Assembly (NCBI RefSeq): GCF_004342605.1
Contig: NZ_SLZL01000009.1
Coordinates: 62,001-126,000 of the forward strand
Direction: 5' to 3'
From: Caulobacter sp. BK020
Lineage (GTDB): Bacteria; Pseudomonadota; Alphaproteobacteria; Caulobacterales; Caulobacteraceae
Length of the DNA stretch: 64,000 nt
Under the pieces are notes generated by a model. That model had not been told where the DNA came from. It did no database searches and saw only the letters and a list, made by a program, of their open reading frames with translations. Numbering within the stretch: position 1 is the first letter of the stretch; every line of letters starts with the position of its first letter. A program made the translations under genes and the position numbers. Below, piece after piece: positions 3,867 to 20,411 of the stretch.

Positions 3867-6704
3867 CTACTTCCGCGTCACCACCACCGGCTGGCCGTTG
3901 TAGGCCACGGTCTCGTCCACGGTGTCGAAGTCGACCGGCTTGGCGCCCGAGCCGATGAAGCGGACCTTGATCGTCCGGTTCTCGACCATGCCTTTGAACG
4001 ATCCCGAGCGGGCGCCGATGGTCAGGCGGCCGGTGGCGTTGTCGAAGCTCATCGGGATCCGGCTCCAGGCGCCGCGGGCGTAGCCGTTGCTGAGGCCGTC
4101 GTCCTCGTAGAGCTCGAACTTGCCGTCGGCCCCGGTGTAGACCACCACGGTCAGCGGCGCGTCGGGCTGTTCGCCGACATATTGCTGGACCACCGTGGTC
4201 GGCACGATCGAGCCGGCCTTCACGAACAGCGGCATGCGCGACAGCGGCGCGTCGGCCTTGATGGTCTGGCCGCCCTTGAACGCCTTGCCGGTCTCGAAGT
4301 CGTACCAGCTGGTTCCTGCCGGCAGATAGACCTGCCGCGAGCGCGCCTTGAACTGCGTCACCGGGGCGACCAGGAACGCCTTGCCGAACAGGTACTCGTC
4401 ATTGACGCCGCGGGCAGTCGTGTCGGACGGGAAGTCCATCACCAGGCCGCGCATCATGATCCCGTCGCGCTGATAGGTGTCGGCCGCCAGGGTGTAGACG
4501 TAGGGCATCAGCCGGTAGCGCAGCTCGTCGTACCAGGCCAGGCTCTTGTAGACCTCAGTCCCCTCGTCGGCGAGGTTGTAGATTTCGCGGTACGGGAACT
4601 CGCCGTGGCTGCGGAACAGCGGGCTGAAGGCGCCGAACTGGAACCAGCGCAGGTTCAGCTCCTGCCATTCAGCCCAGTGCGCCGGGTCCTTGTTGGTGTA
4701 GCGATCCTCGACCGAGAAGCCGCCGATGTCGGTGGTCCAGTTGGGAATGCCCGACATGGACAGGTTCACCCCGGCCGAGATCTGGTCCTTCAGGTCGTCC
4801 CAGCGCGCGACCACGTCGCCGCTCCACAGGGCCACGCCGTTGCGCTGGATGCCGCCGAAGCCCGAGCGCGACAGGATGAAGCTGCGCTTGTCGGGGTCGG
4901 TCTGGCGCTCGCCATCGAACACGCCCTGGGTGTGGATCAGCGGGTAGGAGTTGTAGAATTCCGCCCCCGGGCCGATCGCCGTAGGCCCCATGCGCAGGGT
5001 GCGCTCGGGGATGTCGAGATTGGAGTGCATGTCCGGCTCGTCGCTGTCCATCCACCAGGCGTCGATGCCGAAGCCCTTCAGGCTCTCCTTGACCTGGCGC
5101 CAGTAGATGTCGCGCGCTTCCTTCGCATAGGGGTCGTAGAACGAGTTCAGGTAGCCCGGGCCGACCCAGTCCAGGGCGCCCTGCTCGATGTTACGCTTGT
5201 ACATGAAGCCCTTGGCGTCCAGCTCCTTGAAGTGCTCCGTGGTCGGATAGAACTTCGGCCAGATCGAAATCATGATGTGGCCGTTCATCCCGTGGATGTC
5301 GTCCACCATCTTCTTGGGGTCGGCGAAGCGGGTCTCGTCGAACTTGTGGCTGCCCCAGGCGTCGTCCTTCCAGTAGCGCCAGTCCATGACCACGTTGTCG
5401 ATCGGCAGCTTGCGGTCGCGATATTCCTTGAGCACGCCGACGATCTGGTCCTGGGTCTCGTAGCGCTGGCGGCTCTGCCAGAAGCCGTAGGCCCAGCGCG
5501 GCAGGGCCACGGCCTTGCCGGTCAGTTCGCGATAGCCGCTCACCACCTGGTCCAGGTCGCCGCCCGTCACGAAGTAGTAGTCGACCGCATGGGCGACGCC
5601 CGAGGTCATGGTCAGCGACTTCTGGTCGGCCGCCGGCATCGGATTGTTGTGCAGCAGGCCAATATAGCCCTCGTTGGGATCCCACTCGACGCGAATCTTG
5701 TGGCGGGTCCCGGCTTTCATCGGGGCGGTGAAGTTGTGGAACCACGGGTTCCAGTTCTGCCGCCAGCGGTCGATCGTCAGCTTGCCGTCGACATAGACCT
5801 TGGCGTAGCTGGACGAGTAGAGCTTGAACTTCTGGACGCCGCTGACCGAGGGCTCGACCGAGCCTTCCCAGACCACGGTGGCGCCCTTGACCGGCTTCTT
5901 GTCAGGACCGGTCAGCTCGGCCGGCCAGTTGGGCAGATCCTTCAGGAAGCGATAGTCGATGTCCTTCTCGGTCCGGGTCAGCTTCAGCGCGCCGTTGACA
6001 TAGTACTTGGCGGTGAAGCCGCCGGCCTTGCCGGCCGCGTCGAAGATCTTCAGGTCGCGCGAGGCGACGTCATAGGGCGTCGGGTCGCCGAACCGGGTGA
6101 TGCCGTTGTTTTCCCACAGCAGGCCGTAGTTGCGGGTGGACAGTACGAACGGCACGGCGATGTCGCGATTGTACTGCGCCAGTTCGACGTCCTGGCCGTT
6201 GTAGTTCATCTGGCCGTTCTGGTGCTGGCCCAGGCCGTAGAAGGCCTCGTCCGTACCCGGATTGAACTGCTGGCTGACGCTGTAGAAGGTCTTGCCGTCG
6301 ATGGTCTCGGGCTTGAACGGACGCCGGCCGTTCTCGGCCAGGACCACCTTGCCGGCCGTGTCGCGGAAGCTGACCTGGCCGTCGGCCAGCGAGACCTCGG
6401 CCGAGGCCTTGCCGGCCTTGACCACCACCTTGCCGCCCGCCTCCGTCACCGTGAACGGGCCGCCCGGCCTGGCCGTCACCATCAGGCTGGGGGGCGTGTC
6501 GAGGCTGTCGGTCGGCGTGGCCGTGACGTGGATGATCCGCTCGCCCATCACCTGAAGCCGCACCTTCTTGGCGGGCCCCGAGGCGGGGGTGACGACCACG
6601 CCGTCGGCGGTCTTTTCGAAGGCGCCGTCCAGCGCGAACGCGCTGGTCGAGGCCATCAGGGCGAGTGTGAGGCCGGCCAGAAGGGCCTTGGGCAGCATGC
6701 GCAT
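3867..6704 (-). CDS. GH31 alpha-xylosidase/alpha-glucosidase with PA14 insert
   Basis: This is a large (945-residue) exported glycoside hydrolase of family 31. The signal peptide ends near ASTSAFA. An N-terminal beta-sandwich is interrupted at about residues 235-345 by a PA14-like domain (YVNGALKLTR, VYVDGKLTIDRWRQNW). The catalytic barrel follows with the nucleophile motif WWMDSDEPDMHSN (Asp553). A PA14 insert at this point is the hallmark of xyloglucan alpha-xylosidases such as Cellvibrio japonicus Xyl31A, so removal of alpha-1,6-xylose from xyloglucan oligosaccharides is the likely role. AGGGGAAG sits upstream of the ATG. It follows the GH35 gene after 78 bases and is probably co-transcribed with it. 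Confidence 0.9.
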   Translation of the reverse strand: MRMLPKALLAGLTLALMASTSAFALDGAFEKTADGVVVTPASGPAKKVRLQVMGERIIHVTATPTDSLDTPPSLMVTARPGGPFTVTEAGGKVVVKAGKASAEVSLADGQVSFRDTAGKVVLAENGRRPFKPETIDGKTFYSVSQQFNPGTDEAFYGLGQHQNGQMNYNGQDVELAQYNRDIAVPFVLSTRNYGLLWENNGITRFGDPTPYDVASRDLKIFDAAGKAGGFTAKYYVNGALKLTRTEKDIDYRFLKDLPNWPAELTGPDKKPVKGATVVWEGSVEPSVSGVQKFKLYSSSYAKVYVDGKLTIDRWRQNWNPWFHNFTAPMKAGTRHKIRVEWDPNEGYIGLLHNNPMPAADQKSLTMTSGVAHAVDYYFVTGGDLDQVVSGYRELTGKAVALPRWAYGFWQSRQRYETQDQIVGVLKEYRDRKLPIDNVVMDWRYWKDDAWGSHKFDETRFADPKKMVDDIHGMNGHIMISIWPKFYPTTEHFKELDAKGFMYKRNIEQGALDWVGPGYLNSFYDPYAKEARDIYWRQVKESLKGFGIDAWWMDSDEPDMHSNLDIPERTLRMGPTAIGPGAEFYNSYPLIHTQGVFDGERQTDPDKRSFILSRSGFGGIQRNGVALWSGDVVARWDDLKDQISAGVNLSMSGIPNWTTDIGGFSVEDRYTNKDPAHWAEWQELNLRWFQFGAFSPLFRSHGEFPYREIYNLADEGTEVYKSLAWYDELRYRLMPYVYTLAADTYQRDGIMMRGLVMDFPSDTTARGVNDEYLFGKAFLVAPVTQFKARSRQVYLPAGTSWYDFETGKAFKGGQTIKADAPLSRMPLFVKAGSIVPTTVVQQYVGEQPDAPLTVVVYTGADGKFELYEDDGLSNGYARGAWSRIPMSFDNATGRLTIGARSGSFKGMVENRTIKVRFIGSGAKPVDFDTVDETVAYNGQPVVVTRK

Positions 6705-6782: not shown

Positions 6783-8405
6783 TCAGTACGTGGCCAGCTT
6801 GACTTTCAGCACCTGCGGTAATGTCGTCAGGTTCAGGCCATAGTCGACCTGATCGCCGTTCCACACCCGGTCGAACACCCATTGGCCGTTGTCGAAGTGG
6901 CCTTCCTCGACCCGGGCCAGCATGAACCGCTCGTCCTTGGCCGAGCCGAAGGTGACGCGGGCGCGATAGCCGGTGACCAGGAACTCGTTGGCCGAGAGCC
7001 GGGCGATCAGGGCGCCGCCGTCGGGGACCTCGCGGCCCGGCTGCTTCTCGGCCTTGCCCATCCAGGGAGCGTCCATCGAGCCGAACTGCCATTCGCCGTA
7101 CGAGATCGTGGCTGTCCAGCGGTCGCCCAGCTTCAGGGTCTCGGCCTTGCGGTCGTCAGCCTCGCCCGCGCCCCAGACCTCGCCCGTGTAGGACAGCCTG
7201 GCCCACTCGCGGGCCATTGGGGCCAGCAGGCGATAGTGGACGCCGAAGTTCTCCAGCGCCTGGGCATCCACCGTCTTGGCGCCGAGCGGGTAGTTGGAAT
7301 AGCCGGTGTAGTCGAGGCCAAACGGCGAGAAGCCGATTCCGTGATGGCCCAGCACGTCGTAGACGTGGCGGGCGTAGCCCTTGTCGCTGCCGATCTCGGG
7401 CACGAACAGAGCGTTATCGGGCCGGCCGTACTGCTCCAGCGTCTTCCGTACGCTGGCGCTCTCGCGCATGTAGATGTCGGGCGCGATGGCGTCGATCGAC
7501 GGCGCGGCGGCCTTCCAGACGTCCAGCACGTTCCAGGTCGGCCCGCCCGACGAATAGGTGAACGGGTCCTGATACTTGAAGGGGTCGCGCAGGGCGGCGT
7601 TGACGTACATCGGCAGCGGCAGCTCGCGCTTGCCGGCGGCGGCGACCTCGTCGACGAACCGGCCGATCGACCAGGCGTGGAAGAACTCGTCGGCGTCCTT
7701 GCCGAACACCGCCGTCCAGGTTCCCGGCTTCTTGCCCATGGCCTTGACCAGTTGGGCCGGCACGGGGCCTTCGAACAGCTTCTGGGCGGTGGGGGAATAG
7801 TCGCGGATGGCGCTGTAGGTGCCGGTCTCGTTCTCGGGCTGGATCATGATCACCGTGTGATCGGGATCGGCCGCCTTCAGGTGACGCATCAGGGCGACGA
7901 AGGCCTTCTTGTCGGCTTCCAGCGTGGCCGGAAAGTGCGGCGACAGCGAGTTCTTGACTTCGCTCTTGGCGTTGATCACCCGCGGGAAGCGCTTGTTGTC
8001 CAGCTTGACCCATTCAGGCGCGTATTGCGGACCGTTGTTCTTCCAGGTGCCGAACCACAGCAGCACCAGCTTCACGTCGTTGTCGCGGGCCTGTTTCAGC
8101 AGCAGGTCGACATACGAAAAGTCGAACTGGCCTTCGACCGGCTCGATCTGCTCCCAGGCGATTGGGATCTCCAGGGTGTTGGCGTGCATCGCCTTCACCG
8201 CTGGCCACACCTTGGGCAACTGCGAGGGATAGTTGGCGGCGTTGTTGGCCTGGACGCCCAGCATCAAGTACGGCGCGCCGTCGACCATCAGGGCGTGCCG
8301 GCCGTCCTTGGCGACCAACCTGGGCAGGTCGGCGGCGTGGGCGGGCGCGGAGGCTGCCATGCCGGCCAGGGTCGTGGCGGCCAGCAGCGCCGCAACGCGC
8401 GCCAC
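6783..8405 (-). CDS. GH35 beta-galactosidase, exported
   Basis: The product resembles the GH35/DUF5597 beta-galactosidases of xyloglucan loci (Cellvibrio Bgl35A type), which remove galactose from the side chains. The catalytic pair is visible: the acid/base Glu193 in MIQPENETGTY and the nucleophile Glu337 in FVPEIGSDKGY. The C-terminal part (GGALIARLSANEFLVTGY) fits the DUF5597 beta-sandwich. I chose the GTG at 8405 because CAGGA precedes it by seven bases and it gives a clean signal peptide ending SAPAHA. A TTG start at 8447 would add 14 residues of poor signal-peptide character. A promoter with a LacI-type operator lies upstream. Confidence 0.9.
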   Translation of the reverse strand: MARVAALLAATTLAGMAASAPAHAADLPRLVAKDGRHALMVDGAPYLMLGVQANNAANYPSQLPKVWPAVKAMHANTLEIPIAWEQIEPVEGQFDFSYVDLLLKQARDNDVKLVLLWFGTWKNNGPQYAPEWVKLDNKRFPRVINAKSEVKNSLSPHFPATLEADKKAFVALMRHLKAADPDHTVIMIQPENETGTYSAIRDYSPTAQKLFEGPVPAQLVKAMGKKPGTWTAVFGKDADEFFHAWSIGRFVDEVAAAGKRELPLPMYVNAALRDPFKYQDPFTYSSGGPTWNVLDVWKAAAPSIDAIAPDIYMRESASVRKTLEQYGRPDNALFVPEIGSDKGYARHVYDVLGHHGIGFSPFGLDYTGYSNYPLGAKTVDAQALENFGVHYRLLAPMAREWARLSYTGEVWGAGEADDRKAETLKLGDRWTATISYGEWQFGSMDAPWMGKAEKQPGREVPDGGALIARLSANEFLVTGYRARVTFGSAKDERFMLARVEEGHFDNGQWVFDRVWNGDQVDYGLNLTTLPQVLKVKLATY

Positions 8406-8499
8406 GGGGCGGTCCTGTCCTGGCCGAGTTCTATCCTGAAGCCGCAAGCTCGCCTCCCACTAGGTCGTCATTCCAGAGGCTCACCTCGTCGCGACAACC

Positions 8500-8571: not shown

Positions 8572-10083
8572 CTAGATCGGATCAGCCTTGCAATGACGAG
8601 CGATGAACTCGTCGTGCGTGATCAGGCGATCGGCGATATGGACCATCTTGTCCCGGATATTGAACAGCGTGCGCTCGACGTCGGCGATCGGCGGGACGTC
8701 GGCCAGGCGGTCGTGGTCGCGGGGCTCGATCCCCTGCCCCAGGAACACGGCGATCCAGCTGGGTTCGGCGAACAGCTGGTCGTCATAGCGGGCGACCTTG
8801 CCGCGCTCGCGGAAGAGCTCGATCTTGTGGGTCAGCGCCTCGGGCAGCGCCATGTTCGCGCAATAGCGCCATAGCTCGGAATCGTCCCGTTCCGTGGCGC
8901 AGTAGTGCAGGATGATGAAGTCGCGGATCTGCTCGTACTCGACCTTCGACAAACGATTATATTCCGCGACCGCAGCCGCGTCGTAGGTTCGGGTCGGCAG
9001 CAGGGAGAGCAGGCGCATCACTCCCGTCTGGATCAGGTGGATGCTGGTGGATTCCAGCGGTTCCATGAAACCGCTGGCTAGGCCCAGGGCGACGACGTTC
9101 TTGTTCCAGGCCTGCTTGCGCCGGCCCGTCGTGAACCGCAGCAGCCGCGGCTCGGCCCGCGGCGCGCCGTCCAGATTGGCCATCAGGGTGGCGGCCGCCT
9201 CGTCGTCGCTGATGAACGGGCTGGAATAGACGTAGCCGTTGCCGGTCCGGTGCTGCAGCGGAATGCGCCATTGCCAGCCGGCGGCGCGCGCGGTCGAGCG
9301 GGTATAGGGCGTCAGCGGCGTGACGCTGTCGCAAGGCACGGCCAGCGCCCGGTCGCAGGGCAGCCAGTGGGTCCAGTCCTCGTAGCCGGTCTTCAGGGTC
9401 TGTTCGATCAGCAGGCCCCGGAACCCCGAACAGTCCACGAAGAAATCGCCCTCGACACGTCGGCCGCCCTCCAGCTCGACCGCTTCGATGAAGCCGTCGG
9501 CGGCGCGCTGCTTGACCTCGACGATCTTGCCCTCGGTCCGCTTGACGCCTCGCGCCTCGGCGTACTCGCGCAGGAAGCGGGCGTAGAGGCCGGCGTCGAA
9601 ATGGTAGGCGTAGGCCAGCGGCGGCACGCCGGGCGGCAGCTCGCGCGGCGCGATGACGAACTTGCCTTTCCGGGCCGCGACGGCCGACATCGAATAGTCG
9701 TAGAGATCGGTGGCGTCGCCGTGCTCACGCAGGCGATGCCAGTAATGGTGGAAGCCCACGCCGTCGATCGGCGTCCCGATCGGACCGAAGGGATGGAGAT
9801 AGCTGTGGTCCAGCTTCTTCCAGTCGCGGAACTCGATGCCCAGCTTGAAGGTGGCTTGAGTCTTCTTGACGAAGTCGATCTCGTCGATACCCAGCATACT
9901 GTTGAGAAACTGGATCGGCGGGATGGTGGCCTCGCCGACCCCGACGGTGCCGATCTCCTCGGATTCGACGAGTTCGATCTCGGCGACCTTCCCCTTGACC
10001 GCATGGGCCAACGCGGCGGCGGCCATCCAACCCGCGGTGCCCCCGCCGACGATCACGAACTTGAAGGGAGACTGCCCGGTCAT
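8572..10083 (-). CDS. Tryptophan-halogenase-like flavoprotein
   Basis: The 503-residue product is a flavin-dependent halogenase of the PrnA type by motif. It has the FAD motif GGGTAGW (residues 13-19), the halogenase motif WQWRIP (270-275), the catalytic lysine Lys80 in ATFKLGIEF and a glutamate (Glu344) in EPLESTSI. These equal PrnA Lys79 and Glu346, so the active site looks intact. It lies 139 bases downstream of a TonB receptor gene and upstream of GH35/GH31, with no natural-product genes nearby. Halogenase-like genes beside TonB receptors are common in Caulobacter and Xanthomonas, but their substrate in that setting is not known. There is no signal peptide, so it is probably cytoplasmic. 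Confidence 0.88.
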
Positions 10084-10148: not shown

Positions 10149-10199
10149 TAAAAAGGCCCCCGCCCCACCCCGGTCGGGCCGGGACGGAACGGGGGCCTG
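10149..10199 (-). terminator. Intrinsic terminator after the TonB receptor
   Basis: On the minus strand AGGCCCCCG pairs with CGGGGGCCT across a GC-rich loop, followed by TTTTATT. It lies about 25 bases past the receptor stop and upstream of the halogenase-like gene, so it should separate or attenuate transcription between the two. Confidence 0.8.
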
Positions 10200-10222: not shown

Positions 10223-13159
10223 CTAGAACGTGCCGCGCAGCACGATCGAGTAGCGGCGGTCCGCCACGATCCAGTTGTGGCCGGTCAGACCCTCTTCAGG
10301 CCGGCCGGGATAGCTGACCAGGATCTTGCTCTTGGCGTTGGCCAGGTTCGCCGCCTGGAAGCCGATCTTCAGCGCGTCGTTGACCGTGTAGAAGACCGAA
10401 CCGTCCAGCTGGCCGTAGTCGTCGTACCAGGCCGGAATGTTGATGTTCGCGGCCGTGGTGGTCAGCAGGTAGCGCTCACGCCAGTTGTAGGCCAGGCGCG
10501 CCGACACCTTGCCCAGGTCGTAGAGCGCCGCGACATTGTAGCTGGTCTTCGACATGCCCTCGAGCGGGAGATCTTCCGCCGCGCTGTTGGTGATCTGGGT
10601 GTTGTCGTACGGGTTGACCGCCCCGTTTCGCGTGCCCTTGCTGTCGATATAGGTGAAGTTGGCCTGTACGCCGAAACCGCGCAGCGCGCCGGGCAGGAAG
10701 TCATAATACTGCTGGTAGGCGACTTCGAAGCCCTTAACCTTTCCGTGGCCGGCGTTGTACGGCTGGATCACCTGGACGGTGCGGGTCACGCCGTTGTTGG
10801 TGAAGCTGAGGTTGGTCGGACTGTTGGCGATGAAGTTGTAGATGTCCTTGTAGAACACCGTCGCCGTCACGCTGCCGGTCGAGTTGAAGTACCACTCGTA
10901 CGACAGGTCGTACTGGGTGGAGCGGATCGGCTTCAGCTCGGGATTACCGGCGTTGGCCGTGTATTGATAGACGCAGTTGGCCTGGGAACCGCCGGGGATG
11001 CTGTTCGTGCAGACGCCGCCGGAGATGAAGCCGTTGGTGGCGCCGATCGAGTAGTTCGGCTGCAACTGTTGGAAGTCCGGACGGACGATCGACTTGGCCG
11101 TCGCGAAGCGGATGAACATCTCCGGAGTGAGCTTCAGGCGCACGTTCAGGCTGGGCAGAACGCTCACATAGTCGCGGCCGCCCTTGATGGGGCTGGAGGC
11201 CCCGTTTCCGAACGCCTGGTCGGCCGCCGGAAGGTTGGAGCTGCTGCTACCGTTGTTGACCGGGAAGGTCTGGGTGCCCTGGCCCTGGCTCTCGGTCTTG
11301 ACGACGCGCAGGCCGATGTTGCCGTCGATCTCGCGCTGGTCGCCCCATAGCGAGACGTCGTGTCCGAACCGCAGCAGGCCGTAGGCCGCCAGGGTCTCTT
11401 CCTTCTGGTGGTTGATGCTGCCCCGGCCACCAGCCGGGGTTTGCTCGTCGAACACGCCGTTGAAGGCGCGCCAGCCGCCGCCGTTCGCCTGTGCGATCCG
11501 TTGCAGCAACTGCGAGGTGTCGCCGTAGTTGTTCACGAAGGCCGCGGTCGGCATCACGAACGGTGCGGGCAGCTTAGTCTTGCCGCGGAAGTAGTTGTCG
11601 AACGCGAAGACCCCGTAATAGCCCTGGTAGGCGTCCAGCGTGGTGATCGGACCGCTCGCCGACCAGCTCGGCGCCACCGTGTCCCAACGATAGGTGGTTT
11701 CGCGGGTAGTGGCTTGGCGGAAGGTGTGGCGGACGCCGAAGCGGAACGACTTCAGCCAGCTGCCCTCGTCGAAGCTGTACTCGCCGTCGAAGCGCTCGGC
11801 CCACTCGGCGGCGTCGTTGCGATCGTGGTGATCCATCGCCGCTTGCAGGTAGTAGTTGGCCGGATTGGCCAGGAACGCTGCGTCGTTATTGACCGTGATC
11901 TGGGGCAGGTCCCCGGTCAGGTCCAGCGTTGCCGGCAGGGTCGAGCCGTTCAACGAGTTGAACGCGGTGTTATCGACCGTCTTGGTCTTGGCGTAGATGT
12001 ACTGAATGTCGGCGGTGAACGCCCACTTGTCGTTCGGATTGTACTTCACGTTCAGTGAGTAGTCCGAGGTCACCGAGCTGCGGTCGGCGAAGCGGGTGTC
12101 GATCAACGACGAGCCGAGGGTGTCGCCGCCCGGCGCGTTGGCCATCGTGCCCTTGAGGAAGTGGCCGGTATCGCTGTAGGTGAAGCTGGTCCCGGCGGCC
12201 GGGCCGTTGCCCGATCCCGGATTGAAGCCGTTGGCCCGTTCGGTCGAGGCCTGCGACGCCGACGAGCGCAGGAAATGCAAGGTGGCTTCCCACTGCTCGT
12301 TGGGGCGCCATTGCAGAGCGGCGTCGATGCCCTTGCGCTCGCGTTCGAAGTCCAGGCTGCGATAGCCGTAGCCGCCGGGGACGTACACCGTCTTGCCCGG
12401 AACCAGGTCGGTGCGGACGTTGTACGGATCGACCGACATGGTGTCGGTGCGGCTGGAGAGCTTGGAATCGGACAGGTCGACCAGGAAGCCCAGCTCGCCG
12501 ATATTGGTGTCCCAGCGGTTGCTGTACAGGATCGAGCCGCTCGGCTCCCACTTCCGGGCCAGGTCGCCCCAGCTGGAGTCGAGCGAATAGGCCAGGACGC
12601 TCTTCTTGGAATCGAACGGCATGCGCGTGCGCAGGTTGACGGTGCCGCCCACCCCGCCTTCGATGATGTCGGCCGACGGGTTCTTGTAAACGTCGACGCC
12701 GGCCATCAGCTCGGGCGGCACGTCTTCGAAGCTCAGGGTGCGGCCGGCCTTGGCCGAGAAGCTGTCGCGGCCGTTCAGTTCGCCGCGGACCCAGCTGAGA
12801 CCGCGAACCTGCACGCCGCTGCCCTCGACCGAAATGCGGTCGGCGTCGCGAGGATCCGAGGTTCGGCCGATGGTGACGCCCGAGATGCGCTGTAGCGCCT
12901 CGGTGACGCTGCGGTCCGGCAGGGCCCCGATGTCGGTCGAGGTGATCGAATCGACCATCTGCTCGGCGTTTTGCTTCAGCTTCTGCGCCGACTGGATGGC
13001 GGCGCGCTGGCCGGTGACGACGATTTCTTCGACAGTGTCCACGCTCTGCGCGGGAGCGGCGGCCGTCTGAGCGGCGGCGATGGCGGGCAGAGCCGCGCAG
13101 ATGACGAGCGCTGACGCGCCCATGAGCATGGCGTTGCGACGGGTATTGCGAGACGACAT
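10223..13159 (-). CDS. TonB-dependent receptor for oligosaccharides (probable)
   Basis: This is a 978-residue outer-membrane receptor with a signal peptide ending AIAAAQ, a TonB box VEEIVVTGQ, a plug domain (LPDRSVTEALQRISGVTI) and a long beta-barrel ending with the aromatic residue Phe. Size and motifs match the large TonB-dependent receptors that import plant-polymer oligosaccharides in Caulobacter and Xanthomonas. Its neighbours (GH35, GH31, GH5, galactose catabolism) point to xyloglucan oligosaccharides as cargo, by inference. AAGGAAACC precedes the ATG. A perfect LacI-type palindrome lies 130 bp upstream, and a strong terminator follows the gene. Confidence 0.9.
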   Translation of the reverse strand: MSSRNTRRNAMLMGASALVICAALPAIAAAQTAAAPAQSVDTVEEIVVTGQRAAIQSAQKLKQNAEQMVDSITSTDIGALPDRSVTEALQRISGVTIGRTSDPRDADRISVEGSGVQVRGLSWVRGELNGRDSFSAKAGRTLSFEDVPPELMAGVDVYKNPSADIIEGGVGGTVNLRTRMPFDSKKSVLAYSLDSSWGDLARKWEPSGSILYSNRWDTNIGELGFLVDLSDSKLSSRTDTMSVDPYNVRTDLVPGKTVYVPGGYGYRSLDFERERKGIDAALQWRPNEQWEATLHFLRSSASQASTERANGFNPGSGNGPAAGTSFTYSDTGHFLKGTMANAPGGDTLGSSLIDTRFADRSSVTSDYSLNVKYNPNDKWAFTADIQYIYAKTKTVDNTAFNSLNGSTLPATLDLTGDLPQITVNNDAAFLANPANYYLQAAMDHHDRNDAAEWAERFDGEYSFDEGSWLKSFRFGVRHTFRQATTRETTYRWDTVAPSWSASGPITTLDAYQGYYGVFAFDNYFRGKTKLPAPFVMPTAAFVNNYGDTSQLLQRIAQANGGGWRAFNGVFDEQTPAGGRGSINHQKEETLAAYGLLRFGHDVSLWGDQREIDGNIGLRVVKTESQGQGTQTFPVNNGSSSSNLPAADQAFGNGASSPIKGGRDYVSVLPSLNVRLKLTPEMFIRFATAKSIVRPDFQQLQPNYSIGATNGFISGGVCTNSIPGGSQANCVYQYTANAGNPELKPIRSTQYDLSYEWYFNSTGSVTATVFYKDIYNFIANSPTNLSFTNNGVTRTVQVIQPYNAGHGKVKGFEVAYQQYYDFLPGALRGFGVQANFTYIDSKGTRNGAVNPYDNTQITNSAAEDLPLEGMSKTSYNVAALYDLGKVSARLAYNWRERYLLTTTAANINIPAWYDDYGQLDGSVFYTVNDALKIGFQAANLANAKSKILVSYPGRPEEGLTGHNWIVADRRYSIVLRGTF

Positions 13160-13490
13160 TCCGGTTTCCTTCCCCAGGTGAGATCCGTCCCGACGCTCTC
13201 AAAGGCGTCGGTGACGTGCGCCGCACGCAGCGGTCACACGATCTGTTTTGGACCTTTAGTCATATAATTCGGACTGACAAGCCGAAATTGATAGCGCTAT
13301 CATTTCGGCCGGCCACGGCGACTTTTGAGCCACAGGCCTCGCAGCAAACCCGTCTGCCGCCTGGAGAATTACAGCCTCAGGTCGTCTTTCGCAGCGCGCC
13401 ACGACGTTCCAGGCGTTTGCGATCATCATTATAATACTATAAATGCACGGAACGAATTCGAGCGGCTCGGCCGCGGCGTCAGGGCGGGTC
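13160..13490. promoter_or_regulatory. Divergent promoter region, receptor versus dehydratase operon
   Basis: This 331-base gap separates two divergent transcription units. It holds a perfect 14-bp palindrome, TGATAGCGCTATCA, at 13289-13302, flanked by CCGAAAT and ATTTCGG and next to an AT-rich stretch that could be the receptor -10 region. On the plus strand TATAAT at 13430-13435 is a candidate -10 for the dehydratase operon. The ATG at 13443 lies within this AT-rich stretch with no ribosome site, which argues for the start at 13491. Confidence 0.6.
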
Positions 13491-15227: not shown

Positions 15228-16169
15228 ATGAACCCCATGGACAGTTCGATCACGATCTTCGGCGACTGGGGCACCTCGCGCCTGCGGCTCTATCTGCGGC
15301 AGGGCAAGAGCGTGCTGGACCGGCGCGACGGACCCGGCATCGGCGCGCTCAAGGCCTCGCCGCGCGAGATCTTCCTGGAGCTGGTCGGCGACTGGCGCGA
15401 GGCCAAGCCCTCGCTGGCCCTGCTGTGCGGCATGGTCGGCTCGCGCAACGGCTGGCAGGAAGCGGCCTACGCCCCCTGCCCGGCCAACGCCGCCGACATC
15501 CGCGAGCGGCTGTTGCAGATCGACGTCGAGGGCCTGCCGGTGGCCATCGTGCCCGGCCTGTCGTGCCGCAACGCCCTGGGCGGGCCGGACGTCATGCGCG
15601 GCGAGGAGACCCAGATCCTGGGCGCGCTCGAACTGGATCCCGCCCTCAAGCAGGGCCGGCGCCTGCTGGCCCTGCCCGGCACCCACACCAAGTGGGTCGT
15701 GGTCGAGGACGGCGCGATCACCAGCTTCCTGACCGCGCCGGTCGGTGAGCTCTACGCCCTGCTGCGCGAGCACTCGATCCTGGCCAAGGCGACCCCGGGG
15801 GACGGCCCGGAATCACCCGAGGGCTTCGCCCGCGGTGTCGCCCGGATCGTCGAACAGGGCCCCGCGCGCCTGCCGCACCTGATCTTCGAGACCCGGAGCC
15901 GACAGCTTCTGGACGGCCTGCCCAAGGACGAGGCCATGGGCTTTCTGTCCGGCCTGCTGATCGGCAGCGACATCGCGACCACCGCCAGCTGGTTCGGGGA
16001 TCTAGGCCAGGTGTCGCTGATCGGCGCCCCGGCGCTCGGCGCGCTCTACGCCCAGGCCATCGCCGCCCATGGCGGTTCCAGCGCGGCCGTCGACGGCGAT
16101 TCCGCCGTCCTGGCCGGACTTGCAACCTTGTCGCCAGCCCAGAACAGTGGAGTTCACGTCCTTGCCTAG
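15228..16169 (+). CDS. dgoK: 2-dehydro-3-deoxygalactonokinase DgoK
   Basis: DgoK phosphorylates 2-keto-3-deoxygalactonate with ATP, the second step of galactonate breakdown. The 313-residue product begins with the ASKHA-type phosphate motif FGDWGTSRLRLYL and contains CGMVGSRNGWQE, GEETQILGAL, LPGTHTKWV and FLSGLLIGSDI, all characteristic of the DgoK family. Its ATG directly follows the TAG of the dehydratase, so the two are translationally coupled; a second ATG three codons in is an alternative. The 3' end overlaps dgoA by eight bases. Confidence 0.93.
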   Translation: MNPMDSSITIFGDWGTSRLRLYLRQGKSVLDRRDGPGIGALKASPREIFLELVGDWREAKPSLALLCGMVGSRNGWQEAAYAPCPANAADIRERLLQIDVEGLPVAIVPGLSCRNALGGPDVMRGEETQILGALELDPALKQGRRLLALPGTHTKWVVVEDGAITSFLTAPVGELYALLREHSILAKATPGDGPESPEGFARGVARIVEQGPARLPHLIFETRSRQLLDGLPKDEAMGFLSGLLIGSDIATTASWFGDLGQVSLIGAPALGALYAQAIAAHGGSSAAVDGDSAVLAGLATLSPAQNSGVHVLA

Positions 16170-16791
16170 CACCACCCCCAAGGCGGCTCCGCCGATCGTC
16201 GCCATCCTGCGCGGCGTCAAGCACGACGAGATCCTCGACATCGCCGCGGCCCTGGTCGAGGCTGGGATCGAAGCCATCGAAGTGCCGCTGAACTCGCCCG
16301 ACCCGCTGGTGACCATCGGCAAGCTGTGCGCCACGTTCGGCGACCAGGTGCTCTGCGGCGCGGGCACCGTCCTGTCGCCGGAAGCGGTCGACCAGGTGGC
16401 CGGCGTCGGCGGCAAGCTGATCGTCACCCCCAACACTGATCCTTCCGTCATCACCCACGCCGTCGGCCTGGGCCTGACCGTGATGCCCGGCTTCGCCACA
16501 CCCAGCGAGGCCTTCGTCGCCGTCAAGGCCGGGGCCAGGGCCCTGAAGCTCTATCCGGCCGGCACCTACGGCCCCGGCCATATCAAGGCCGTGCGTGATG
16601 TGCTGCCCAAGGACATCGCGGTCTACGCCGTCGGCGGCGTGGGCGCGGCCAATCTGAAGCCCTGGATCGACGCCGGCGTGGCCGGCATCGGCGTCGGCGG
16701 CGAACTCTATCGACCCGGCTACACCGCCCAGGAGGTGGGCCAGCGCGCCAAGGCCCTGGTGGCGGCCTGGGCGGAACAGACCGCGCAGTAA
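16162..16791 (+). CDS. dgoA: 2-dehydro-3-deoxy-6-phosphogalactonate aldolase DgoA
   Basis: DgoA cleaves 2-keto-3-deoxy-6-phosphogalactonate into pyruvate and glyceraldehyde 3-phosphate. The 209-residue product is a class I KDPG/KDPGal aldolase with AILRG, EVPLNSP, GAGTV and the Schiff-base lysine Lys129 in ALKLYPAG. I chose the TTG at 16162 because TGGAG lies nine bases upstream and the product matches the usual length of about 205. A GTG at 16147 is the alternative. The start overlaps the dgoK stop by eight bases, so the two are translationally coupled. Confidence 0.93.
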   Translation: MPSTTPKAAPPIVAILRGVKHDEILDIAAALVEAGIEAIEVPLNSPDPLVTIGKLCATFGDQVLCGAGTVLSPEAVDQVAGVGGKLIVTPNTDPSVITHAVGLGLTVMPGFATPSEAFVAVKAGARALKLYPAGTYGPGHIKAVRDVLPKDIAVYAVGGVGAANLKPWIDAGVAGIGVGGELYRPGYTAQEVGQRAKALVAAWAEQTAQ

Positions 16792-16821: not shown

Positions 16822-18387
16822 GTGAGAACCATCGACTTCGTCATCCTAGCGATCTACGCCGTCGCCATCTTCGGCCTGGCCCAGTGGGTCAGCCGCGACA
16901 AGGGCGGCCACAAGAAGGACTCCACCGACTACTTCCTGGCCGGCAAGGCGCTGCCCTGGTGGGCGATCGGCGCCTCGCTGATCGCCGCCAACATTTCGGC
17001 CGAGCAGATCATCGGCATGAGCGGCTCCGGCTACGCCCTGGGCCTGGCCATCGCCTCCTACGAGTGGATGGCGGCCCTGACCCTGCTGATCGTCGGCAAG
17101 TTCTTCCTGCCGATCTTCCTGAAGAACAACATCTCGACCATGCCCCAGTTCCTGGAGCAGCGGTATGGCCCCAGCGTCCGCAACGTGATGGCCGTGTTCT
17201 GGCTGGTGCTTTACGTCTTCGTGAACCTGACCTCGATCCTGTGGCTGGGCTCGATCGCCATCCATACCGTGGCCGGCATCGACCAGATGCAGGCCCTGGT
17301 GATCATCGGCGTGTTCGCCCTGGCCTACCAGCTTTGGGGCGGGCTGAAGGCCGTGGCCCTGACCGACATCGTCCAGGTGGCCCTGCTGATCACCGGCGGC
17401 CTGATCATCGTCTTCCTGTCGCTGAGCAAGATCGGCCACGGCGACGTCCTGGCGGGCTTCCACCAGCTGACCGTCCAGTTCCCCGAAAAGTTCGACATGA
17501 TCCTCAGCAAGGACAACCCGCACTACAAGGATCTGCCCGGCCTTAGCGTCCTGTTCGGGGGCCTGTGGGTGATGAACGTCTCGTACTGGGGCTTCAACCA
17601 GTACATCATCCAGCGCGCCCTGGGCGCCAAGGACATCGCCGAGGCCCAGAAGGGCATCGCCCTGGCCGCCTATCTGAAGCTGCTGATGCCGGTGATCGTG
17701 GTGCTGCCGGGCATCGCCGCCCTGGTCCTGGCGCCGGGCCTGGCCAAGCCCGACCAGGCCTATCCGGAGATGATGAAGCTGCTGCCGCCCGGCGTGCTGG
17801 GCGTGGTGTTCTCGGCCCTGGTCGCCGCGATCGTCGCGTCGCTGGCCGCCAAGATCAACTCGATCGCCACCATCTTCACCCTGGACGTCTACGCCAAGGT
17901 CAGGACCGGCTCCAGCGAGCGCCACCTGGTCACCGTGGGCCGGATAACGGCCGTCGTCGCGGTGATCGTCGGCATCCTCATGGCCAGGCCGTTGCTGGGC
18001 AAGGCTGAGCAGGCCTTCCAGTTCATCCAGGACTTCACCGGCTTCTTCACCCCGGGCATTGTGGTGATCTTTATGCTGGGCCTGTTCTGGAAGCGCGCCA
18101 CCACCGCTTCGGCCCTGGTGGCCGCGATCGGCGGCGCGGCCCTGTCGGGCGCCTTCTTCGTCGCCGACAAGATGGGTCTTTTCGTGATCCCGTTCATGAA
18201 CCGCGTGGGCCTGGTCTTCCTGCTGACCCTGGCCGCGGCGATCATCGTCTCGCTGGTCGCGCCTCAGAAGAAGGAGGTCAACGTCGTGTCGCTGGACGGC
18301 GTCAGCTACAAGACCACCGCCGGCTTCAACATCGCCGGCCTGGGCGTGATCGTGATCCTGGTCGCCCTCTACGCCATGTGGTGGTGA
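16822..18387 (+). CDS. Sodium/galactose symporter, SSS family (vSGLT-like)
   Basis: This inner-membrane Na+/sugar symporter of 521 residues has about 13-14 predicted helices. Long stretches match the Vibrio galactose transporter vSGLT, for example DYFLAGKALPWWAIGASLIA, AANISAEQIIGMSGSGY and YWGFNQYIIQR. Sugar-contact positions of vSGLT are kept, including the glutamate of ASYEW (Glu81 here, Glu88 in vSGLT), the glutamine of SAEQ and the lysine of AYLKLL. This supports galactose as the imported monosaccharide. The GTG start is preceded by GGGGGG at good spacing, 30 bases after dgoA, so it belongs to the same operon. Confidence 0.92.
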   Translation: MRTIDFVILAIYAVAIFGLAQWVSRDKGGHKKDSTDYFLAGKALPWWAIGASLIAANISAEQIIGMSGSGYALGLAIASYEWMAALTLLIVGKFFLPIFLKNNISTMPQFLEQRYGPSVRNVMAVFWLVLYVFVNLTSILWLGSIAIHTVAGIDQMQALVIIGVFALAYQLWGGLKAVALTDIVQVALLITGGLIIVFLSLSKIGHGDVLAGFHQLTVQFPEKFDMILSKDNPHYKDLPGLSVLFGGLWVMNVSYWGFNQYIIQRALGAKDIAEAQKGIALAAYLKLLMPVIVVLPGIAALVLAPGLAKPDQAYPEMMKLLPPGVLGVVFSALVAAIVASLAAKINSIATIFTLDVYAKVRTGSSERHLVTVGRITAVVAVIVGILMARPLLGKAEQAFQFIQDFTGFFTPGIVVIFMLGLFWKRATTASALVAAIGGAALSGAFFVADKMGLFVIPFMNRVGLVFLLTLAAAIIVSLVAPQKKEVNVVSLDGVSYKTTAGFNIAGLGVIVILVALYAMWW

Positions 18388-18470: not shown

Positions 18471-18503
18471 TTGACATGATTGTTCCGGGCGTGGACGAAG
18501 CAC

Positions 18504-18522
18504 GCTACACAAGGTCAGACCT
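18504..18522 (+). promoter_or_regulatory. Candidate -10 and GntR operator before the regulator gene
   Basis: GCTACACA (18504-18511) resembles the Caulobacter sigma-73 -10 element (GCTANAWC as I recall it). It is followed at once by the 11-bp palindrome AGGTCAGACCT (18512-18522), which has the GGT-N3-ACC core of FadR-subfamily operators. The same GTCAGAC core recurs at the GH5 promoter. Autoregulation is the simplest reading. Confidence 0.45.
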
Positions 18523-18569
18523 ATTCCGACGACGACCGGTTCGAGAAGCGTTTTGGGGGCGACAACTTG

Positions 18570-19301
18570 GTGATCCGTACGCAGCCAGGCCTCAGTCTGA
18601 CCTATGGACTCGTCGAGTCCCTGGGCCAGGCCATCGTCACGGGCGAATACGCCCAAGTCGGTTTCCCCACCGAGGGCGAGCTGTCCAAGCAGTTCGGCGC
18701 CAGCCGGACGGTCACGCGCGAAGCGGTCAAGATGCTGACCGCCAAGGGCCTGCTCAGCGCCCGCCCTCGCCACGGCACCGTGGTCGAGCCCGAAACCGAG
18801 TGGAACCTGCTGGATCCCGACGTCCTGCGCTGGATGCTGGAGCGCAAGTTCTCCCTGCGCCTGCTGGCCGAGTTCACCGAGATGCGCCTGGGCATCGAGC
18901 CCGCCGCCGCCGGCTTGGCGGCCCGCAACGCCGACGAGGCGGGGCTGGAGGGCATCCGCAAGGCGCTGAACCGCATGAAGACCGCGGCCGAGGGCGAGGA
19001 CGACCCGCTGACCGCCGACATCGCCTTCCACGTGGCGATCCTCAACGCCACGAAGAACCCGTTCTATCGCGACCTGCACGAGCTGGTGAACACCGCCTTG
19101 CGGATCTCGATCCGCTTCACCAACCGCATCAAGGGCCGCACCGCCTCGATCCCCTCGCACGAGGACGTCGCCAACGCCATCTTCGCCCGCAACGCCGAGG
19201 CGGCGCAGAAGGCCATGCAGGTGATCTTGGTCGACGTTCTGGACCTGATCCGCGCGGCCTCGCCCGAGACCGAGTCCGAAGCCGCCCGCCGCGACGCCTG
19301 A
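18570..19301 (+). CDS. GntR family regulator, FadR subfamily (DgoR-like)
   Basis: The product has an N-terminal winged helix (GEYAQVGFPTEGELSKQFG, then ASRTVTREAVKMLTAKGLL) and a C-terminal all-helical FCD domain with ligand/metal-type residues (EMRLGIEP, DIAFHVAILNATKN, SHEDVANAI). In E. coli DgoR of this subfamily represses the dgo operon and responds to galactonate. Its position next to the dgo genes suggests the same role. The GTG at 18570 is preceded by GGGGG and gives 243 residues, close to DgoR. The frame is open to a TTG at 18480 but that has no ribosome site. Confidence 0.85.
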   Translation: MIRTQPGLSLTYGLVESLGQAIVTGEYAQVGFPTEGELSKQFGASRTVTREAVKMLTAKGLLSARPRHGTVVEPETEWNLLDPDVLRWMLERKFSLRLLAEFTEMRLGIEPAAAGLAARNADEAGLEGIRKALNRMKTAAEGEDDPLTADIAFHVAILNATKNPFYRDLHELVNTALRISIRFTNRIKGRTASIPSHEDVANAIFARNAEAAQKAMQVILVDVLDLIRAASPETESEAARRDA

Positions 19302-19397: not shown

Positions 19398-20411
19398 ATG
19401 CTCAAAGCCCTTCAGGCCGTAACCCGTCCCTTGGCCGCCCTGGCTCTGCTCTCGGCCTTGGTCGCCGTGCCCGCCGCGGCGCGCGAAATCTCGGCCCAGG
19501 ATCAGGTCAGGACGATGACCCGAGGGATCAACGTCCTGGGCTACGACCCGCTGTGGAAGGATGCCGCCAAGGGCCGCTTCCAGATGCGGCACTTCAAGAC
19601 GATCAAGGCCGGCGGATTCGATACGGTGCGGCTGAACCTGCACGCCTTTGAGCACATGGACGCCGACAACCGGCTGGACCCCGCCTGGCTGAAGACCCTG
19701 GATCAGGTAGTCGACGCCGCCCTGGCCCAGAAACTGACCGTCATTCTCGACGAGCACGACTTCGACGCCTGCGGCGAGGCCCCCGCAGCCTGCAAGCCCA
19801 GGCTGGTCGCCTTCTGGAAACAGATCGGCGAGCACTACAGGGACGCGCCGGACCGGGTAGTGTTCGAACTGCTGAACGAGCCCTGCAAGGGCCTGATCGA
19901 CGACGTATGGAACGCTTGGATCGCCGAGCTCCTGCCGGTCGTGCGAGCGAGCAATCCCACGCGCAACGTCGTGGTCGGCCCCGCCTTCTGGAACAATATC
20001 GGCCACCTTGACCAGTTGAAGCTGCCGGAAAGTGACCGGCACCTGATCGCCACCGTCCACTATTATCTGCCCATGGAGTTCACCCACCAGGGCGCGTCGT
20101 GGAATCCCGCCACGCCCAAGACCGGCGTCACCTGGGGCACGGACGCCGAGCGCCAGCGGATGAAGGCCGACTTCGACGGCGTCCAGGCCTGGGCCAAGGC
20201 CCATGAACGACCCATGCTGCTGGGCGAGTTCGGGGCCTACGACAAGGGCGACATGGCCTCGCGCGTCGCCTACACCGCCGCCGCCGCCCGCGAGGCCGAG
20301 GCGCGCGGCTGGGCCTGGGCCTATTGGCAGTTCGACAGCGACTTCATCGCCTATGACATCAAGAAGGACGCCTGGGTGGCGCCGATCCATGGGGCGCTGG
20401 TTCCGCGCTGA
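19398..20411 (+). CDS. GH5 endoglucanase, exported
   Basis: This is a 337-residue family 5 glycoside hydrolase with a signal peptide ending VPAAA. The catalytic acid/base is Glu161 in VFELLNEPCKG and the nucleophile is Glu277 in MLLGEFGAY; the conserved HYYLP motif lies between them. GH5 enzymes cut beta-1,4-glucans, and in this setting xyloglucan or a mixed glucan backbone is likely. GAGGAA precedes the ATG at good spacing. It is transcribed from its own promoter with a strong operator just upstream and follows the GntR gene after about 96 bases. Confidence 0.9.
   Translation: MLKALQAVTRPLAALALLSALVAVPAAAREISAQDQVRTMTRGINVLGYDPLWKDAAKGRFQMRHFKTIKAGGFDTVRLNLHAFEHMDADNRLDPAWLKTLDQVVDAALAQKLTVILDEHDFDACGEAPAACKPRLVAFWKQIGEHYRDAPDRVVFELLNEPCKGLIDDVWNAWIAELLPVVRASNPTRNVVVGPAFWNNIGHLDQLKLPESDRHLIATVHYYLPMEFTHQGASWNPATPKTGVTWGTDAERQRMKADFDGVQAWAKAHERPMLLGEFGAYDKGDMASRVAYTAAAAREAEARGWAWAYWQFDSDFIAYDIKKDAWVAPIHGALVPR

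Follow-up and report, generated by a model that had tools for sequence, protein, structure and literature searches.

Characterized Relatives and the Halogenase Gene

Flavin-dependent halogenases of the BrvH/Xcc4156 type (group C) have been studied as biocatalysts, and their natural job is still being sought. These enzymes are described as having open sites and rejecting free tryptophan; no native substrate is assigned to BrvH or to the Xanthomonas enzymes, and peptides have been suggested (PMC5945002, PMC7336383). BrvH brominates free indole, but the activity is low and its authors doubt that indole is the natural substrate (PMC5945002); the Xcc enzymes are active on indole derivatives (PMC7336383). 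A BrvH K83A mutant is inactive (PMC5945002). Group C enzymes are without the tryptophan lid motif (PMC8269204).

We analyzed a gene of this type in a 64,000-nucleotide stretch of DNA from Caulobacter sp. BK020 (hereafter the window):

8572..10083, minus strand, flavin-dependent halogenase of the BrvH/Xcc4156 (group C) type, with K80, E344, S345, and WQWRIP intact

The open reading frame begins with ATG, encodes 503 amino acids, and matches the Pfam family Trp_halogenase (PF04820) with an E value of 1.7e-206 over profile positions 1-455 of 458, a near-complete coverage. Residues 13-19 (GGGTAGW) supply an FAD motif that fits the GxGxxG pattern, WQWRIP occupies residues 270-275, and Lys80 and Glu344 fall in the aligned catalytic columns, with Ser345 also present. 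Lys80, Trp270, Trp272, Ile274, and Glu344 are invariant in an alignment of 32 diverse sequences, Lys80 aligns with the essential lysine of BrvH, and both catalytic residues are kept in 137 of 150 relatives. Against four Caulobacter orthologues, dN/dS is 0.12-0.27. The catalytic residues are intact and under purifying selection, and the initial annotation, which described a halogenase-like protein with the FAD motif, WxWxIP, and Lys80/Glu344, is confirmed by the Pfam match, the 32-sequence alignment, and the alignment with the BrvH lysine. An AlphaFold model (mean pLDDT 92) superimposes on 6y1w with TM scores of 0.94-0.97. Inspection shows no obvious signal peptide, which makes a cytoplasmic location probable. 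From its sequence, the gene is predicted to encode a bromide- or chloride-using flavin halogenase.

The nearest solved structures are Xcc4156 (6y1w), a Pseudoalteromonas enzyme, and BrvH (6frl), while PrnA, RebH, and SttH are more distant. The tryptophan lid is absent: unrelated residues align where SttH has YYHGL-PPYS. The protein instead carries ATIPPI and HPFGP, which fit the group C motifs ATIPxx and HPFGx. Nearest structures, missing lid, and motifs together place the enzyme in group C with BrvH and Xcc4156, and the missing lid sets it outside the free-tryptophan halogenases of groups A and B (PrnA, RebH, PyrH, and SttH).

The Surrounding Sugar Locus

The genes flanking the halogenase encode sugar uptake and sugar catabolism:

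3867..6704, minus strand, GH31 glycosidase with PA14 domain, likely an alpha-xylosidase
6783..8447, minus strand, GH35-type beta-galactosidase with DUF5597 domain
10223..13159, minus strand, TonB-dependent receptor of the TIGR01782 (TonB-Xanth-Caul) type, 978 amino acids
13443..15227, plus strand, IlvD/EDD family dehydratase (sugar acid dehydratase, galactose side)
15228..16169, plus strand, 2-keto-3-deoxygalactonokinase (DGOK)
16069..16791, plus strand, KDPG/KHG-type aldolase (start probably near 16147)
16822..18387, plus strand, sodium:solute (sugar) symporter
18480..19301, plus strand, GntR/FCD-type regulator
19398..20411, plus strand, GH5 endoglucanase-type enzyme

The GH35 and GH31 genes lie downstream of the halogenase, and the genes from the dehydratase to the GH5 enzyme lie upstream of the receptor and are divergently oriented. 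The gene sits between a TonB receptor and glycoside hydrolases, as had been noted. The locus has the three genes expected of a xyloglucan locus (GH31, GH35, and TonB receptor), and these occur together in the Cellvibrio japonicus XyGUL, which combines a GH31 alpha-xylosidase, a GH35 beta-galactosidase, and a TonB receptor. Because of this match xyloglucan is a good guess, and by analogy the window locus probably serves this substrate. A halogenase is not reported in the Cellvibrio locus (PMC4285296), suggesting that the enzyme is dispensable for the sugar chemistry as such.

The domain identities of the neighbors also bear out the earlier remark that no biosynthetic cluster is present. PF04820 enzymes of antibiotic clusters are homologues, and a conventional secondary-metabolite or RiPP halogenase could in principle have landed here by accident. 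This explanation is very improbable: biosynthetic genes are lacking nearby, the gene holds its position in four Caulobacter orthologues and also in other orders, and no convincing precursor open reading frame adjoins the gene, as the receptor-halogenase gap contains no small open reading frame and the other flank only one of 24 codons.

Two putative regulatory elements accompany the receptor gene:

10154..10198, minus strand, strong intrinsic-terminator-like hairpin with a 20 bp stem and U tract, between the receptor and halogenase genes
13289..13302, unstranded, LacI-type operator-like perfect palindrome TGATAGCGCTATCA, upstream of the receptor gene

The hairpin is conserved in the orthologues. 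Terminators are found in 71% of same-strand receptor-halogenase pairs; the figure falls to 40% for unlinked receptors and to 5% for shuffled sequences. The palindrome is exact in four orthologous Caulobacter loci, and of seven other loci that were checked, six match it with no more than two mismatches.

Halogenases Recur Beside TonB Receptors

The most constant neighbor of these halogenases is a TonB receptor. The Caulobacter genome (5.1 Mb) encodes 20 PF04820 genes in 13 clusters and approximately 90 TonB receptor barrels. Adjacency computed from search coordinates places a receptor within 500 bp of nine of the 13 clusters, and at a tenth (L019) a profile search revealed a receptor 60 bp away that the Pfam barrel search had not picked up. 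A random genome site is expected to lie within 1 kb of a receptor 6% of the time; at p = 0.06, ten of 13 clusters corresponds to a probability near 1e-10 when the clusters are treated as independent. Among 80 loci from other alpha-, beta-, and gammaproteobacteria, a receptor lies within 1 kb of 67 of 82 halogenase clusters, and some clusters have no neighboring receptor. As these loci were picked by similarity to the window halogenase, it is important that the pattern also appears in a second sample, a genome belonging to a different family (G012), where all five halogenase clusters are within 2 kb of a TIGR01782 receptor, four of them within 600 bp. Recurrence of halogenases beside TonB receptors is far above chance. 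The initial annotation had stated that such genes recur next to receptors in related bacteria and had asked for a survey of gene neighborhoods; the statement holds in all three samples, and the survey indicates that the association is not accidental.

Divergent PF04820 proteins (425-460 bits) are also found in genomes without TIGR01782 receptors, and in the Caulobacter genome members scoring about 425-460 bits have WxWDIG in place of WxWRIP. The receptor link thus appears to belong mainly to the WxWRIP subgroup. One divergent gene of the halogenase family (WTWDIG; L018:9566-11158) directly adjoins a PTS sugar permease gene (L018:11163-12923).

We found no report of the receptor-halogenase link in the open literature. 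As far as that literature shows, the sugar-agnostic receptor link, the conserved terminator, and the catalytically degenerate copies considered below are undescribed, although such an absence counts as weak evidence.

The Loci Serve Different Sugars

The sugars served by the 80 loci bear directly on what the halogenase might modify. Alpha-glucan genes (GH13, GH97, and glucokinase) mark 30 loci from which other markers are missing, sucrose or raffinose genes (GH32 and GH36) mark seven, and xylan genes (GH10 and GH43) eight; ten are of the GH35 type seen in the window (xyloglucan-like). Alpha-glucans and sucrose carry no aromatic groups, so an aromatic target from the plant wall cannot explain the whole set of loci. 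The earlier suggestion that the enzyme halogenates an aromatic on plant cell-wall material is weakened by the 30 alpha-glucan and seven sucrose/raffinose loci and by the absence of a signal peptide by inspection; such a target is possible for single loci, not for the whole set. It is more likely that the target is something common to the uptake systems than plant material. The alternative suggestion of an envelope component, whether the receptor or another shared protein, is favored over the plant-wall aromatic.

A related explanation holds that a small free aromatic (indole-like, phenolic, or of feruloyl type), brought in with the glycan or made by the cell, is halogenated or detoxified. BrvH and the Xcc enzymes act on free indole and on indole derivatives, respectively (PMC5945002, PMC7336383), and xylan and xyloglucan derive from aromatic-rich plant walls. 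We nevertheless consider this rather unlikely, since the indole activity of BrvH is low and doubted as natural, as introduced above, the receptor-halogenase pair also occurs in starch- and sucrose-type loci, and a single metabolite hardly explains twenty locus-specific copies.

The Receptor as a Candidate Target

We tentatively propose that the gene product is a functional BrvH/Xcc4156-type halogenase, dedicated to a TonB sugar-uptake locus, and that it modifies an aromatic residue of an uptake protein. An uptake-system protein is suggested because the target must occur in all of the starch, sucrose, xylan, and xyloglucan loci and be accessible to a cytoplasmic enzyme. Twenty locus-specific halogenase copies in one genome are also easier to reconcile with dedicated partners than with a single common metabolite. 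The enzyme would act on an aromatic residue, with tryptophan the prime suspect, and the best candidate substrate would be the neighboring receptor, prior to its export. The terminator between the two genes would keep halogenase levels low compared with those of the plentiful receptor. Because the halogenases track TonB receptors whatever the sugar, the search for the natural role of group C enzymes narrows from plant aromatics to a shared component of uptake.

Several observations bear on the receptor itself. First, tryptophan makes up 2.1% of residues in receptors beside halogenase arrays and 1.9% in window-type receptors, compared with 1.2% in unlinked receptors, an enrichment that is confounded by receptor phylogeny; linked receptors of beta- and gammaproteobacteria are not enriched (1.25%). 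We also looked for tryptophans that would tell linked receptors from unlinked ones. None is diagnostic. The best is W563, which 88% of linked receptors carry, as do 57% of the unlinked, and it is the only tryptophan found at 90% or more across the three main linked receptor clades. Second, co-divergence of receptors and halogenases within the Caulobacter genome is not significant (r 0.37, P 0.10), and the correlation over all loci (r 0.61) is confounded by common descent and by linkage. Finally, in locus L026 the receptor is 92% and the halogenase 79% identical to those of the window, whereas in L024 the values are 81% and 90%; this conflict in relatedness indicates separate histories of exchange for the two genes within Caulobacter. 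Conflicting relatedness between the receptor gene at 10223-13159 and those of L023-L026 suggests recombination of the receptor gene alone. In the open literature we came across no halogenated protein described from these bacteria. The receptor is the halogenation target that we favor as a guess, and it should not be read as demonstrated.

The receptors paired with halogenases come from more than one family. That several receptor families are linked to one halogenase family, and that the loci tolerate independent exchange of the two genes, would also be expected if the target were a different envelope component common to these systems; a lipoprotein, a surface glycan, or a TonB/ExbD partner would be examples. 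We regard this as improbable, as no candidate gene recurs in the loci beyond receptors, sugar hydrolases, transporters, and LacI regulators.

Degenerate Copies and Possible Partners

Where three to five halogenase genes stand in tandem beside a receptor, the array usually includes a copy that has lost the catalytic Lys and/or Glu, and often WxWxIP as well. Thirteen catalytically degenerate copies occur in Caulobacterales, Sphingomonadales, Hyphomonadaceae, relatives of Maricaulis, and gammaproteobacteria, mostly at array position 2:

L009:13931-15382, plus strand, degenerate halogenase copy
L013:10505-12010, degenerate halogenase copy
L028:6481, L029:4976, L031:4952, L033:6496, L036:3484, and L036:6488, degenerate copies
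L045:4668, L065:6505, L088:6547, L100:6488, and L069:3317 (partial), degenerate copies

Most of these branch together in a midpoint-rooted tree, with the partly degraded L069:3317 apart. The L009 copy keeps the Lys and has Asn at the Glu344 position, and an alignment with PrnA agrees. An AlphaFold model of a dead copy (pLDDT 90.9, best match BrvH) predicts an intact fold. For one species pair, dN/dS is 0.22 in dead copies compared with approximately 0.10 in active neighbors, a weaker but real constraint. One may guess that dead copies act as a scaffold or partner.

Bromide is scarce in freshwater habitats. This general consideration, and the persistence of fold-intact dead copies in receptor-side arrays at a dN/dS of 0.22, would suit a protein that no longer performs halogenation in vivo and instead binds flavin as a redox or regulatory partner to the uptake machinery. 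We judge this quite unlikely for the window gene, which keeps both catalytic residues together with 137 of 150 relatives; a purely structural role needs neither.

Other genes are found near halogenases in some loci. DUF6445 genes occur at L075:1679-2404 and in nine further of the 80 loci, with another at L018:8853-9494. They share a conserved pattern (H.D ... H ... GRLT) reminiscent of Fe(II)/2-oxoglutarate oxygenases, and searches by sequence against solved structures gave no match for DUF6445. Cupin_8 (JmjC-like) genes accompany some receptor-halogenase loci (L013:17428-18441, L069:9523-10536, L019, L037, L060, and L088). SapC, which we take to be a halogenase associate, was considered as a partner and rejected: the genome has only two copies, neither adjoining the window halogenase gene.

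Returning to a dedicated modification of the uptake machinery, a wider and speculative version would have TonB uptake systems carry a protein-halogenating maturation system of their own, with a receptor-linked halogenase, sometimes an array of active and dead copies, and occasional oxygenase-like DUF6445 or Cupin_8 partners, acting on aromatic residues of the receptor or of a partner and so tuning glycan capture. We consider this broader scheme unlikely as a whole. If it were true, an enzyme that halogenates a membrane protein of nutrient uptake would represent a type of modification new to bacteria.

Comparison With Known Systems

Among described enzymes, Xcc4156 of Xanthomonas campestris (PDB 6y1w) is approximately 50% identical to the window halogenase over the full length and shares its fold, its catalytic residues, and an open substrate site with no tryptophan lid, differing in the organism. 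BrvH of Brevundimonas (PDB 6frl) is approximately 47% identical, with the catalytic lysine and open site alike; a second halogenase gene adjoins that of BrvH, which is of marine origin. PrnA, RebH, and SttH have the fold, the K79/E346 machinery, and WxWxIP in common with the window enzyme, but bind free tryptophan via a lid motif (YYHG.PPYS in group B) and sit in antibiotic clusters. MibH, a peptide halogenase with the PF04820 fold, offers a precedent for peptide tryptophan as a target, although its sequence match to the window halogenase is much weaker and it is part of a lanthipeptide pathway.
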